DNA from: Dehalococcoidia bacterium
GTDB lineage: Bacteria; Chloroflexota; Dehalococcoidia; Lucifugimonadales; GCA-2717565
DNA length: 40,103 nucleotides
Reading direction: 5' to 3'
NCBI GenBank assembly: GCA_009692865.1
Contig: SHYH01000008.1
Coordinates: forward strand, 1-40,103
Below the pieces are notes generated by a model. It had not been told where the DNA came from. It saw nothing but the letters and a program-made list of their open reading frames with translations, and ran no database searches. This document shows, piece by piece, positions 19,641 to 25,229 of this stretch (position 1 is the stretch's first letter; every line of letters starts with the position of its first letter). Made by a program: the position numbers and the translations under genes.

Positions 19641-19677
19641 ACGAAGCCGTCCCGATGCAGCATCGGGACGGCTTCGT
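19641..19677 (-). terminator. perfect 17-bp hairpin downstream of the small helical gene
   Basis: A 17-bp perfect inverted repeat (19641-19657 / 19661-19677) with a CAG loop lies 28 bases past the stop of the minus-strand gene. Only TTT follows on that strand, so it may be a weak terminator. Its core CCCGATGCAGCATCGGG is the repeat unit seen at 4425-4441, so it may simply be a repeat. Confidence 0.5.
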
Positions 19678-19704: not shown

Positions 19705-19977
19705 CTAGGAGCCCTGGGCTTGGCCTGAGAGGACGGCCCGCGCCTCCTCCTTCAGCTCCTGGTCGTCGCAGTCCTGGAGGGTGGAGTAGATGGCCTTCTT
19801 GATCATCTGGAGCTTGGCGGCGTCGGGCTGTGAAGAACCTTCATACTCCTTCAGGAGCCGCTTCAACTGTTCCAGACGCTCCAGGAAGTGGAGCTGGACC
19901 TGCGTGTACGGGCGGGCTTCGGAGCCCTCAGTGGGATTCCCGGATTGGGTCATGTGCTGTTGCCGATCTTCGCTCAT
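19705..19977 (-). CDS. small helical protein of unknown function
   Basis: A 90-residue acidic, cytoplasmic protein that I do not recognise. Residues ~32-85 look fully helical, with heptad-like Leu spacing (FLERLEQLKRLLKEYE) that could form a short coiled coil, then DCDDQELKEEARAVL. There is no signal peptide or membrane segment. ATG 19977 was chosen because GGGGGTGAG lies 4 to 12 bases upstream; the frame is open to 20076 but less protein-like. It is probably a monocistronic gene, bounded by the hairpin at 19641-19677 and the repeat block at 20137. Confidence 0.7.
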   Translation of the reverse strand: MSEDRQQHMTQSGNPTEGSEARPYTQVQLHFLERLEQLKRLLKEYEGSSQPDAAKLQMIKKAIYSTLQDCDDQELKEEARAVLSGQAQGS

Positions 19978-20136
19978 CGCCCTCACCCCCTTTTGGTGTC
20001 CGAGGGATGTGGAGACAGCTCCACCTCCCAGTGTACAGGCCCCACGGAGCCGTTGCAAGTGCTCCAGGACAGCCAAAGGTATGCTTTTCTCTGGCCTTTG
20101 CCTAAAATACCATCCTGAGCGGATGTGAGGTTTTGT

Positions 20137-20330
20137 CCCCTCTCCCTCACGGAGGGAGAGAGTTGGAGTGAGGGGGCTTACACCCTCACCCTTCCCCTCT
20201 CCCTCCGTGAGGGAGAGGGGATTTCGTCACGATCTCTGAGCGAAGCGAAGAATCTAAGACCCCTCGCACCCAAAAATCGCCGTCTGCCCTAAACCACCTA
20301 CCGTAGCGTGGGTGCAGGGCCCGCCCTGCT
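20137..20330. repeat. repeat block between the small gene and dnaK
   Basis: It holds hairpins CTCTCCCTC-ACG-GAGGGAGAG (20140-20160) and CCCCTCTCCCTC-CGT-GAGGGAGAGGGG (20194-20220), with a GTGAGGG/CCCTCAC pair between them. Then come an AGCGAAGCGAAGAATCT stretch and the CGTAGCGTGGGTGCAGGGCCCGCCCTG repeat, whose end overlaps the dnaK stop codon. Nothing else is seen in this 351-bp gap. Confidence 0.75.
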
Positions 20331-22227
20331 AAATCTCCCGGAACTCGCCCTCCACCGTGCCGCTCCCAGGGGGAGGCTTCGGCCCACCCTCAGGGCCTGG
20401 TCCCCCTCCCGCGCCCGACCCCGCCTGGCTGTACACCGCCGCGCCAACCGTCTGCACCGCCTGGCCCAAGTCCTCGAAGCGGGAGCGAATGGCGGCGAAA
20501 TCCTCTTTCTGGAGGGCTAAGCGCAGATCAGCGATCTTCTGCTCGATCTCCTTCTTGAGGTCTTCCGGCACCTTGTCCTTGCGCTCTATAAGGAGCTTCT
20601 CAGCGCTGTAGGCAAGGCCATCGGCCTGGTTGCGCAGCTCCACCTCCTCCTTATGGCGCCGGTCCTCCTCGGCGTGCTGCTCACCCTCGCGAACCATCTT
20701 GTCGATCTCCTGCTGGTTCAGACCCGAGCTTGGATGAATGGTGATGCGCTGCTGCTTCTCGGTGGCTTTGTCCCTGGCCGATACGCTGAGGATGCCGTTT
20801 TCGTCGATGTCAAAGCTCACCTCGACCTGGGGCAAGCCGCGAGGCGCGGGCAGGATGCCGTCCAGGATGAACCGCCCGATGGACTTGTTGTCCCTGGCCA
20901 GGGGGCGCTCCCCCTGCAGGACGTGAATCTCCACGGAGGTCTGGTTGTCGGCGGCGGTGGTGAAGTTCTCCGCCTTGGCGGTCGGAATGGTGGAGTTCCT
21001 GGAGATGAGGGTGGTCATCACGCCGCCCAGGGTCTCCAGCCCCAGGGTCAGCGGCGTCACGTCCAGCAGCAGGATGTCCTTGACCTCCCCCTGCAGAACG
21101 CCGGCCTGAATGGCCGCGCCGACAGCCACCACCTCGTCGGGGTTCACACCCTTATTGGGCTCCTTGCCAAACACCTCCCGCACCTTCTGGATCACGGCGG
21201 GCATACGGGTCATGCCACCCACCAGGACCACCTCGTTGATCTTGTCGCGAGTCATGCCTGCGTCTTTCAGGGCCTGGATGCAGGGGCCCACGCTCCGCTC
21301 GATGAGGTCGGCCACCAGCTGCTCCAGCTTGGCGCGGGTCAGGGTCTTCACCAGGTGCTTGGGCCCGGTGGCGTCGGCCGTGATGAAAGGCAGGTTGATC
21401 TCCGTCTGCAGCACGCTGGACAGCTCGATCTTGGCCTTCTCGGACGCCTCCCGCAGGCGCTGGAGGGCCATCCGGTCCCTGCGGAGGTCGATGCCCTGCT
21501 CCTTCTGGAATTCGTCGCACATCCAGTCCATGACACGCTGGTCGAAGTCGTCGCCGCCCAGGAAGGTATCGCCGTTGGTGGCCTTCACCTCGAACACACC
21601 ATCGCCCAGCTGGAGGACGGAGACGTCAAAGGTGCCTCCCCCCAGGTCGTAGACGGCGATGGTCTCGTCCTTCTTCTTATCCAGGCCGTAGGCCAGAGCG
21701 GCCGCCGTGGGCTCGTTGATAATGCGCAGCACCTCCAGCCCGGCAATGCGTCCGGCGTCGCGAGTGGCCTGGCGCTGGCTATCGTTGAAGTAGGCGGGAA
21801 CGGTGATGACCGCCTGGGTGATCTTCTCCCCAAGCTTGGCCTCGGCGTCGGCCCGCATCTTCTGAAGGATCATGGCCGACACCTCTGGCGGGGCGTGGGT
21901 GTGGCCCCCCATCTCCACCTGGGCGTCGCCGAGGGCGTTCCTGGTCACCTTGTAGGGCAACCGCTTGATGGCGTCCTGGGCCTGGGGGTCGTCGTGCTTG
22001 CGGCCCATGAACCGCTTGATGGAGAAGACGGTGTTCTCCGGGTTGGTGATGGCCTGCCGCTTTGCGGCATCCCCCACGTACCGCTCCCCCGTCTTGGGGT
22101 TGATGGCTACCACCGAGGGCGTCACGCGGCGGCCCTCTGCGTTCTCGATGACCTCGGGCTCGCCTGCCTCGATGACCGCCATGCAGGAGTTCGTCGTGCC
22201 CAGGTCAATTCCCAAAACCTTTGGCAT
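20329..22227 (-). CDS. dnaK: molecular chaperone DnaK (Hsp70)
   Basis: A 632-residue Hsp70 that binds unfolded proteins in an ATP-driven cycle. The ATPase domain opens with [13 protein letters not shown] and has the phosphate loops YDLGGGTFD and GGMTRMP. The [11 protein letters not shown] linker region leads to the substrate domain (~385-500), then a helical lid and a Gly/Pro-rich tail ending [15 protein letters not shown] is 8 bases before the ATG, inside the end of grpE, and the gap to grpE is only 3 bases. It is the last gene of hspR-grpE-dnaK. A dnaJ gene, often found in such operons, is not here. Confidence 0.98.
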
Positions 22228-22230
22228 AAG

Positions 22231-22803
22231 TTACGCCTCCTCCGAAGGAATGTCTCGCTTTTCTTGTGATGCCTTTTGCTCTGCCTCGGCCCGTTTGGCC
22301 ACCACCACCTGGGCGGGCCGCAGCACCTTGCCGTGCAGCTTGTACCCCTCCTGGACCACGCCGATCACCTCGCCATCCGCGTGGTCCGGGCTCTCCTGAA
22401 AGAGCAGGGCCTCGTGCTCCCAGGGGTCATGGCTCTTCCCAAAGGCTTCGATGGTCGTCACCCCCTCCCGCTCCAGGACACGCCACAGCTTGCGGTGGAT
22501 GAGCTCTACCCCCTCGCTCCAGGAGGCGTGGTCCCCCTCGGCGGGGGCGCTCTCCAAGGCGCGGCGGAAGTCGTCCACGACGGTCAGCAAATCCAGGATC
22601 AGGCGGGCGTTGGCGCTCCGCTGGATCTCCTGTCGCTCCTCCTCCATACGACGGCGGTAGTTGATGAAATCGGCCTGAGTGCGTTGCGCCAGAGCGCGGA
22701 ACTGGTCCCGCTCGCGGCTCGCTTCCTCCAGCTCCGCCCTAAGCTGCTCCAAGGTAGAAGCCTGGGCCTCCTGTGGCTGCTCCCCTCGCTCTTCCTGGTT
22801 CAT
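22231..22803 (-). CDS. grpE: nucleotide exchange factor GrpE
   Basis: A 190-residue partner of DnaK that releases ADP. The N-terminal half is a long coiled coil (EQLRAELEEASRERDQFRALAQRTQADFINYRRR in part), followed by the four-helix and beta domain with VDDFRRALES, GVELIHRKLWRVLEREGVTTIEAFG and VVQEGYKLHGKVLRPAQVVVAK, all standard GrpE features. It has normal length and lies between hspR and dnaK with short gaps. Confidence 0.97.
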   Translation of the reverse strand: MNQEERGEQPQEAQASTLEQLRAELEEASRERDQFRALAQRTQADFINYRRRMEEERQEIQRSANARLILDLLTVVDDFRRALESAPAEGDHASWSEGVELIHRKLWRVLEREGVTTIEAFGKSHDPWEHEALLFQESPDHADGEVIGVVQEGYKLHGKVLRPAQVVVAKRAEAEQKASQEKRDIPSEEA

Positions 22804-22834: not shown

Positions 22835-23356
22835 TTATCGCTGGGGCTCCTTGGGAATGGAAAGGTTCAGCAGGGCGAACATCTCGTCAATGTGGCGAGT
22901 GACCAGCTCGATAGCCTGGCTAGGGTCTGGGGCCTTCCCCATCTCCCAGCGAAGGCGCAGGAGGTGGTTGACCAGCTCCAGGACAAGCTCCACCCCCGCC
23001 AGGTTCATCCCTCGGTCGTCCACCAGATGCTTGATGAGGCGCAACCGGGCGATGTCTTCCTCGGAGTAGAGGCGCAGCATGCCCCCCGTCCGGTTGGGGG
23101 CCACCAACCCCACTCGCTCGTACTTCCGCAGGGTCTGGGGGTGCATGGAGAGGAGGCGGGCGGCAACGCTGATGATGTAGACACCTTCGATCTCGACCGC
23201 ATAGACCCGTCCCGTCACCTGAGCGCCAGGGAAAGGGACAGGAACGTCCGAGGAGCTTGCCGCAGCTTCCTGCGGCGCTTCCCTCTCAGACGGAGCGGGG
23301 GACGGAATAAATGTCCAGGCCCGTTGCCGCCGGGTCTCCCTAGGAGGACGCTCCAT
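22835..23356 (-). CDS. hspR: HspR-type MerR-family heat-shock repressor
   Basis: A 173-residue regulator. Residues ~63-130 form a MerR winged helix: YIISVAARLLSMHPQTLRKYERVGLVAPNRT, as in HspR (LHPQTLRxYER), then the wing and a helical region. HspR is known to repress dnaK operons by binding inverted repeats called HAIR, with DnaK as co-repressor. The first ~60 residues are a Pro/Ser/Ala-rich extension longer than usual, so translation may start later, but ATG 23356 has GGTGAG upstream. It heads the hspR-grpE-dnaK operon and lies 51 bases from a HAIR-like operator, which implies autoregulation. Confidence 0.9.
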   Translation of the reverse strand: MERPPRETRRQRAWTFIPSPAPSEREAPQEAAASSSDVPVPFPGAQVTGRVYAVEIEGVYIISVAARLLSMHPQTLRKYERVGLVAPNRTGGMLRLYSEEDIARLRLIKHLVDDRGMNLAGVELVLELVNHLLRLRWEMGKAPDPSQAIELVTRHIDEMFALLNLSIPKEPQR

Positions 23357-23406: not shown

Positions 23407-23449
23407 GTAGTATATCCCTTGACATGATCCATGTCAAGGGATATACTAC
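23407..23449. promoter_or_regulatory. symmetric divergent promoter with HAIR-like HspR operator
   Basis: A perfect 20-bp inverted repeat (23407-23426 / 23430-23449) around ATC. Each strand carries TTGACA, a 17-bp spacer and TATACT: plus strand 23419-23424 and 23442-23447, minus strand 23432-23437 and 23409-23414. The centre, 23418-23438, is CTTGACA-N7-TGTCAAG, close to the known HAIR site CTTGAGT-N7-ACTCAAG. The minus promoter drives hspR-grpE-dnaK; the plus promoter points to the zinc-ribbon gene. Confidence 0.8.
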
Positions 23450-23521: not shown

Positions 23522-23626
23522 GGGAGTGCACTCCCAACTCATCGGGATTGCCGGGGGTTTGGGGGTGTCCTCCAGATATGGTTTCCACCCCCTTCCTGAC
23601 CAGGAAGGGGGACAGGGGGATGGTCG
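23522..23626. repeat. palindromic repeat A2, copy 2
   Basis: GGGAGTGCACTCCC, then ACTCATCGGGATTG, a G-rich stretch, CCAGATA and the CCCCCTTCCTGACCAGGAAGGGGG hairpin followed by CAGGGGGATGGTCG. It aligns in order with 15001-15108. It sits between the plus-strand promoter and the zinc-ribbon gene, so it would be in that mRNA leader. Confidence 0.75.
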
Positions 23627-23735
23627 GATGGGTTTTCATCACCCTGCAGAAGGATCCAAACGCACACACGGAACGTTTAACAAGTGAGAGTCAGGAGCGG
23701 GCCGAGGCCCGCAAGCGAAGAAGGAGGTGATGGAG

Positions 23736-23921
23736 ATGTTACTTCTCAAGGCTTGTCCCAAGTGCGGCGGCGACATGCACGTTGGCGGAGACCTGTACGG
23801 GTCCTACGCCAGCTGCTTGAACTGTGGGTATCTCAAGGACGTTGAGGACGGCGACGACGTTCGGAAGCGCCTGAAGGTAGTAGCGACCCTGCGAGAGCAA
23901 ACGCAGAAGCAGGCGGCGTAA
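23736..23921 (+). CDS. small zinc-ribbon protein
   Basis: A 61-residue protein with two Cys pairs, CPKC near the N terminus and CLNC about 20 residues later, which should bind one zinc ion as a ribbon. The rest is a short basic/acidic helix. I know no function for it. The start is set by a perfect AAGGAGG (23721-23727): ATG 23736 is 8 bases after it, while GTG 23727 and ATG 23730 are too close. The nearest upstream promoter is the plus-strand half of the HspR operator, so it may be heat-responsive. A strong terminator follows. Confidence 0.8.
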   Translation: MLLLKACPKCGGDMHVGGDLYGSYASCLNCGYLKDVEDGDDVRKRLKVVATLREQTQKQAA

Positions 23922-23942
23922 GGGCGGCTTGTCGTGGACCAA

Positions 23943-23978
23943 ATGAAGCCCCCCGTTGGAACGGGGGGCTTCATTTTT
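23943..23978. terminator. intrinsic terminator between the convergent zinc-ribbon and cinA genes
   Basis: A perfect 15-bp stem (23943-23957 / 23960-23974) with a GC-rich centre and a GG loop, followed by a T run on the plus strand (23974-23978). Three As precede it, giving a weaker T run for cinA on the minus strand, so it may work both ways. Confidence 0.88.
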
Positions 23979-23984
23979 CTCGGG

Positions 23985-25229
23985 TCAGCGTTGGGCTGCC
24001 ACCTGTTCCGTTACAAACCGGTACAGCTCCAGAAGCGCGTGCACGGTGGCCGCCCGCTTCACCAGGGGCCTTCCCCTGATATAGCGTCCCTCGACGCTCC
24101 TCGTCCTGCCCTGGAACGAGAGGCCCAGGAAGGCCATCCCCGGTGGCCTTCCTTCCAGGGAAGCGGGCCCCGCAACCCCGGTGATGCCCAGGCCCACATC
24201 GGCCTCGGCCCGCATGCGGGCCGCCTCGGCCATGGCCTCGGCCACAGGGGCGCTCACCACGCCATGCACCTGGATCAGCTCCGGCGGCACACCGTGGGCG
24301 ATCTTCATGGCAGCGGTGTAGGCCACAAAGCCCCCCTTGAAGTAGTCGGAGCTTCCCTGCACGTCGGTGATGCTGCTGGCCAGGGCGCCGCCCGTAAGGG
24401 ACTCCATGGTCGCCAGGGTCAGGTGATGCTCTCGCAGCAGGGCGCCCACTCGTGTCTCGGGGGTCTCGTCGTCCACGCCCCAGAGGTAGCTCTCCAGGGC
24501 TTGGCGTATCTCCGCCTCCATAGGGGCAATCAGCCTCTGGGCCTCCGCCGGGGTGGCAGCGCGGGCGATGATGCGGAGGTGGACGCCGTCGGCCTTGGCA
24601 TAGATGCCCAGGTAGGGGTTCTCCTGGCCAAACAGGCCGTGGATGGCAGCGTCGATGGCCAACTCCCCCAGGCCGAAGGTCTTCAGGGTACGGGTCACGA
24701 TGACCGCGTCCTGGGGCCGTTGCTGAAGGCGGGGCAGCACCTCCTGCTCCCACAGGCCCTGCATCTCGTGAGGCGGGCCCGGCAGTGCGATGATGAGTTT
24801 GCCGTCCTTCTGAACCCACAAGCCGGGGGCGGTGCCTTGCCGGTTGGGGAGGGCCTGGGCCGACGGGATGCGATAGGCCTGGCGTAGGTTTGCAGGGGTC
24901 ATGGTAGCCCCCCGGCCGGCGAAGAGGGACCGCAGCCCCTCGACCAGAGCCTCATCCAGCTGGAGCTCCTCTTTCAGGAGGCGGGCGATGGCTTCGCGGG
25001 TCAGGTCGTCCTGGGTGGGTCCCAGGCCGCCAGTGGTGATGACCACGTCAGACCGCTGGAGGGCCCGCGCCAGCGCCTCTGCCAGGTCCTCCACGCTATC
25101 CCCCACCTGAGCAATACCGCGAACGGTGAGGCCCAAGGCGGGCATGCGGGCCGCCAGGAAGGGAGCGTTTGTGTCCACCAACTCGCCCATGAGAATCTCC
25201 GTCCCAATGGAGAGAATCTCCACGTTCAT
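23985..25229 (-). CDS. cinA: CinA-like protein (COG1058 domain plus PncC amidase domain)
   Basis: A 414-residue protein with two domains. Residues 1-170 are the molybdopterin-binding-like COG1058 domain (SIGTEILMGELVDTN, TTGGLGPTQDD, LPGPPHEM), linked in homologues to ADP-ribose pyrophosphatase activity. Residues ~255-410 are the nicotinamide-mononucleotide deamidase domain PncC (TDVQGSSDYFKGGFVAYT, GITGVAGP), part of NAD recycling. The PncC motif normally written ESCTGG reads ESLTGG. GGGAG lies 6 bases before ATG 25229. It is monocistronic, with a repeat upstream and the terminator at 23943-23978 downstream. Confidence 0.95.
   Translation of the reverse strand: MNVEILSIGTEILMGELVDTNAPFLAARMPALGLTVRGIAQVGDSVEDLAEALARALQRSDVVITTGGLGPTQDDLTREAIARLLKEELQLDEALVEGLRSLFAGRGATMTPANLRQAYRIPSAQALPNRQGTAPGLWVQKDGKLIIALPGPPHEMQGLWEQEVLPRLQQRPQDAVIVTRTLKTFGLGELAIDAAIHGLFGQENPYLGIYAKADGVHLRIIARAATPAEAQRLIAPMEAEIRQALESYLWGVDDETPETRVGALLREHHLTLATMESLTGGALASSITDVQGSSDYFKGGFVAYTAAMKIAHGVPPELIQVHGVVSAPVAEAMAEAARMRAEADVGLGITGVAGPASLEGRPPGMAFLGLSFQGRTRSVEGRYIRGRPLVKRAATVHALLELYRFVTEQVAAQR

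Follow-up and report, generated by a model that had tools for sequence, protein, structure and literature searches.

The question raised by this locus is what a 43-bp inverted repeat (positions 23407-23449), placed between a chaperone operon and a small gene that reads the other way, does for the transcription of both, and how it came to be so symmetric. The window, that is, the whole stretch of DNA analysed (40,103 nucleotides), is contig C53 of the 1.41-Mb draft genome of a Dehalococcoidia bacterium, 82.7% complete. The repeat is formed by two 20-bp arms (23407-23426 and 23430-23449) that are 100% complementary and are separated by the three nucleotides ATC. A reading of this DNA made from the sequence alone (the sequence-only reading) had presented it as a 43-bp perfect palindrome; both arms are indeed exact, but the centre ATC is asymmetric, so that it is properly described as having 20-bp perfect arms and strictly there is no 43-bp perfect palindrome. 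No other close inverted repeat in the whole window has arms as long, and a chance origin is ruled out, as no arm was longer than 13 bp in 20 random sequences drawn from a first-order Markov model with the length and composition of the window.

On the left of the repeat, hspR, grpE and dnaK are contiguous on the - strand. The gene hspR (22835-23356) encodes a MerR-family heat-shock repressor of 173 aa with a MerR_1 match, and its identification as HspR is confirmed by the NCBIfam equivalog cut-off (NF047375, 106.9 bits against 105); it is encoded together with the chaperone genes grpE (22231-22803; PF01025, 154.7 bits) and dnaK (20329-22227; PF00012, 869 bits; TIGR02350). Directly 3' of dnaK and on the same strand there is an ORF of 123 aa (19705-20076) with no Pfam match, and downstream of both lies an inverted repeat with 18-bp arms (19641-19677), which is perhaps the operon terminator.

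Two promoters are predicted within the 43 bp. TTGACA-17 bp-TATACT had been reported on both strands, and each copy was found (11/12 bases). The promoter directed towards the small gene, which encodes a zinc-ribbon protein, spans 23419-23447 on the + strand, with the -35 box TTGACA at 23419-23424, the -10 box TATACT at 23442-23447 and an expected start at about 23454. The predicted hspR-grpE-dnaK promoter spans 23409-23437 on the - strand, with TTGACA at 23437-23432, TATACT at 23414-23409 and an expected start at about 23402. The two -35 boxes are, as had been proposed, the halves of CTTGACA-N7-TGTCAAG, seen at 23418-23438, and the -10 boxes stand at the outer ends; therefore, the promoters overlap completely and face outwards, with some 52 bp between their predicted starts. 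Four promoter-like sites occur in the palindrome region against 0.1 expected from shuffled sequences, and a search of the own genome for the strict mirror promoter returned the hspR site as its sole match. Taking overlapping divergent promoters to be an outward pair with overlapping elements and a gene of its own for each, the site appears to be such a pair by its sequence, by the conservation of its -10 boxes and by the presence of the divergent gene.

The sequence CTTGACA-N7-TGTCAAG is a putative HspR operator, and it had been regarded as a Streptomyces HAIR element altered in the two final bases of both halves. The difference itself agrees with the HAIR consensus CTTGAGT-N7-ACTCAAG (quoted in PMC6102357), with which the site shares 10/14 bases, too few for it to be counted as a Streptomyces HAIR. 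It is instead the normal operator of its lineage. Upstream regions of hspR were sampled from the same order, with loci picked from the best hspR matches, and TTGAYA-N7-TRTCAA was present with 11 or 12 of the 12 specified bases in 120 such loci, at a distance of about 90-420 bp upstream of where the conserved HspR domain begins. The dyad, whose lack of conservation in relatives the sequence-only reading had named as grounds for its own rejection, is therefore conserved. Among 108 non-redundant loci the half-site consensus reaches TTGAYAYR, which gives TTGAYAYR-N3-YRTRTCAA for the lineage and leaves the earlier N7 spacer only partly free. No Streptomyces-type HAIR was found in the sampled loci of the phylum, the best matches being 8-10/14 at most, and nothing relevant to HspR or HAIR in Chloroflexi was found in the literature searched. 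Judged by its sequence, TTGAYA-N7-TRTCAA is the ordinary HspR-type operator of the lineage, and its conservation at hspR, together with the motif at a cbpA-like gene and a second hspR, points to binding by HspR. This other occurrence lies in the own genome (L007, C56:1434-4730), where the operator TTGATACGATCTGTATCAA (locus position 523, 12/12) is upstream of a cbpA-like J-domain gene that is followed by an hspR paralogue (1501-1797). For the Clp ATPase gene of the own genome (C38), no operator was found in the nearby stretch examined.

For the comparison of the promoters, all loci were turned one way and a -10 box was accepted when at least 4/6 bases of TATAAT were matched. On the hspR side, 87% of the 108 loci have the -10 box with a spacing of exactly 17 bp (101/108 with 16-18 bp). 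Its mirrored counterpart is found at exactly 17 bp in 62%, compared with about 7% at control positions, where far offsets range over 3-12%, and the consensus of this left-hand box on the divergent strand is TATAAT. When A2 and T6 were required and a spacing of 16-18 bp was allowed, 69/108 loci, belonging to 26/35 families, kept the mirrored box, whereas control windows gave 9-13 loci. An iterated search started from the window protein detected a divergent homologue of the zinc-ribbon gene, at most 300 bp from the operator, in 75/108 loci. Both the exact spacing of the mirrored box and this conserved neighbour speak for the divergent promoter that had been proposed. A strict mirror pattern gave 16 sites in 15 of 294 genomes of the class (none with the reversed control), 15 of them upstream of hspR and the remaining one, in genome G027, upstream of a ClpB/ClpC-like gene.

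The divergent promoter also covaries with the gene that it faces. The mirrored -10 box occurs in 57/75 loci with the zinc-ribbon gene against 12/33 without it (p=1.6e-4), and the divergent half is exactly TTGACA in 44/75 against 5/33 (p=2.3e-5), although both of these locus-level p-values are too small because the loci are related. The association of the divergent TTGACA with the gene holds at family level (p=0.0013), while that of left -10 strength does not reach significance there (p=0.16). The -35 box on the hspR side is not lost where the gene is missing (64/75 with the gene, 31/33 without), and where a gene of the same strand abuts the operator the mirrored -10 box is absent in 8/11 cases. 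Such a distribution would be expected if the second half-site were adjusted to serve as a -35 box only in loci that have a divergent gene to transcribe. The correspondence is imperfect: the family partner of the window (G001) keeps both -10 boxes and has lost the zinc-ribbon gene, and families f23, f28 and f31 possess the gene and lack a clear mirrored -10 box.

The zinc-ribbon gene (23730-23921, + strand) begins about 276 bp from its predicted start of transcription, after a long untranslated region that contains an inverted repeat with 10-bp arms (23588-23611), and it is single copy in the own genome. It is followed by a hairpin with 17-bp arms (23941-23976) that is terminator-like on both strands, with a scan match on the - strand, and that probably ends both this gene and the convergent gene at 23985-25229, which we take to be cinA-like. 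With its own predicted promoter and this hairpin, the right side has the look of a self-contained unit of promoter, gene and terminator. The protein has 63 aa, the pattern CxxC...CxxC and a C-terminal AA; 65/75 homologues end in AA or VA, preceded by a variable stretch. In the AlphaFold2 model (pLDDT 79), zinc-ribbon-like strands are accompanied by a helical tail of lower certainty, and comparison with solved structures and folds gave no significant matches. Every profile match of the protein is below its curated cut-off, including that to the Lar restriction alleviation family (PF14354, 25.6 against a Pfam cut-off of 28.6 bits). It resembles Lar_restr_allev, Zn_ribbon_Top1, LysW and Thermus ZifS in its size of around 60 aa, its two CxxC pairs and its zinc-ribbon fold, and differs from all of them in its link to hspR and its AA/VA end. 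As this end is similar to a ClpXP degradation tail (degron), it is plausible, by analogy, that the protein is a short-lived, heat-induced product.

All these features are best explained, and we consider it probable, if the 43 bp constitute an HspR operator set within two fully overlapping, outward sigma70-type promoters, with a single HspR dimer shutting both, so that the chaperones and the zinc-ribbon gene would be induced together. The -35 hexamer of each predicted promoter would be one operator half-site, with the -10 boxes at the outer ends. In Streptomyces, HspR is aided by DnaK. Under conditions without stress, an HspR dimer, likewise aided by DnaK, would occupy both -35 boxes and keep both promoters closed. 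From this arrangement we infer heat induction and exclusive occupancy: on release of HspR, RNA polymerase would bind facing either side, but not both sides at the same time, and transcription would thus be divided between hspR-grpE-dnaK on the left and the zinc-ribbon gene on the right. In E. coli bidirectional promoters, competition between polymerases matters only at raised activity (PMC12825309), and here it would count after heat shock.

Such an arrangement can be placed among known systems. The site shares with HspR/HAIR systems (Streptomyces dnaK and clpB; Helicobacter pylori cbp, gro and hrc) the presence of hspR in the chaperone operon, the inverted repeat with a 7-bp spacer, the CTTGA core of the half-sites and the overlap with a promoter; on the other hand, its half-sites end in CA instead of the GT of HAIR and are themselves -35 hexamers, and it has a second, opposite promoter with its own gene. 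The E. coli bidirectional promoters described by Warman and Grainger have one shared -10 element and starts 10, 18 or 23 bp apart (PMC12825309). They are also nearly symmetric DNA on which polymerase can sit either way round, not both; however, the -10 boxes of the window site are separate and at the outer ends, each -35 box lies inside the spacer of its partner, and the distance between its predicted starts is beyond the 10-23 bp of that class. In E. coli bioA/bioBFCD (BirA) and Tn10 tetR/tetA, one repressor region serves two overlapping outward promoters. The predicted layout of the window site is like theirs, and to our knowledge neither of those operators consists of -35 hexamers that mirror each other exactly. 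As far as can be read from the DNA, the window site is of the HspR regulon type, and would work as two divergent promoters controlled by a single operator. The coincidence of the operator halves with both -35 boxes, on the same bases and across many families, is what is new in comparison with the known systems, and it would make repression of the two directions hard to separate by mutation. It is also predicted that a conserved, uncharacterised small zinc-ribbon protein is a heat-shock product in SAR202-type Chloroflexota.

The arms pose a problem of their own, since exact symmetry extends 10 or more pairs past the operator in 9/108 loci against 0.06 expected, and in 7 against 0.13 when the arms are shuffled within families. 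Arm sequences are unlike between families f1, f7, f27, f34 and f41, and one further perfect palindrome (G216) lies outside the order. Promoter function fails to explain them, because palindromes also occur without the divergent zinc-ribbon gene (L065, L052) or at the Clp ATPase-like gene of G027, and because the non-promoter positions d=11-13 covary too. Perfect arm symmetry is therefore, to judge from these sequences, a recurrent phenomenon separate from the mirror promoter, and its presence without a divergent gene makes arm homogenisation the likely process behind it. The simplest account is template switching, a known type of mutation in bacteria (PMC7202029), by which one arm is copied onto the other. 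Members of genus g65 with and without the palindrome have similar right arms but different left arms; some of the non-palindromic ones have a left arm of the GATGATAC type, where the palindromic ones carry a copy of the right arm, which suggests, from arms compared by eye, that the copying went from right to left.

The same observations could be taken further, to the point where the mirrored -10 box is nothing but a by-product: template switching between operator arms (quasipalindrome correction) would have copied the flank of the hspR promoter, and divergent transcription would be incidental. The excess of perfect arms, their unrelated sequences in different families, the covarying non-promoter positions, the palindromes that lack the zinc-ribbon gene and the g65 arms are all in line with this, and yet we hold it to be unlikely, since both the left -10 box and the TTGACA of the divergent side go with the presence of the zinc-ribbon gene and most loci with the mirrored box have no symmetric arms, so that their left -10 boxes give no sign of copying. 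Still less probable is an enlarged binding site as the reason for the extended symmetry, in which flanking HspR dimers would sit cooperatively on the outer arms, a model put forward for the Helicobacter pylori operator of 70 bp. HspR from that species does require flanking non-conserved sequences (PMC6102357), and G027 has palindromes at two HspR-type sites, but the outer arms are unconserved between families except for the -10 positions. That the repeat acts as an RNA hairpin or terminator, being neither promoter nor operator, is very improbable in spite of its length and perfection: there is no T run after either arm, the terminator-like hairpin is elsewhere (23941-23976), and relatives keep the -35/-10 spacing and not the pairing of the arms. 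A reading as an RNA element is also disfavoured by an Rfam scan, which found no family near its cut-off.

The operator shared by two opposing promoters remains the preferred reading, and a tentative idea, possible though doubtful, would connect it with the arms. The symmetric repressor site may seed template switching during replication and so repeatedly copy the promoter arm onto the other strand, turning a one-way promoter into an exact mirror two-way promoter in a single step, which selection would keep where a divergent gene can use it, in this case the zinc-ribbon gene as a new member of the HspR regulon. These loci provide natural replicates of the recurrent formation of promoter palindromes. 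In G027, the HspR-type site upstream of the ClpB/ClpC-like gene (L295, G027:C12, 214-276) carries mirrored promoters in a nearly perfect palindrome, and at hspR the same genome has another palindrome, which is perfect and very long.
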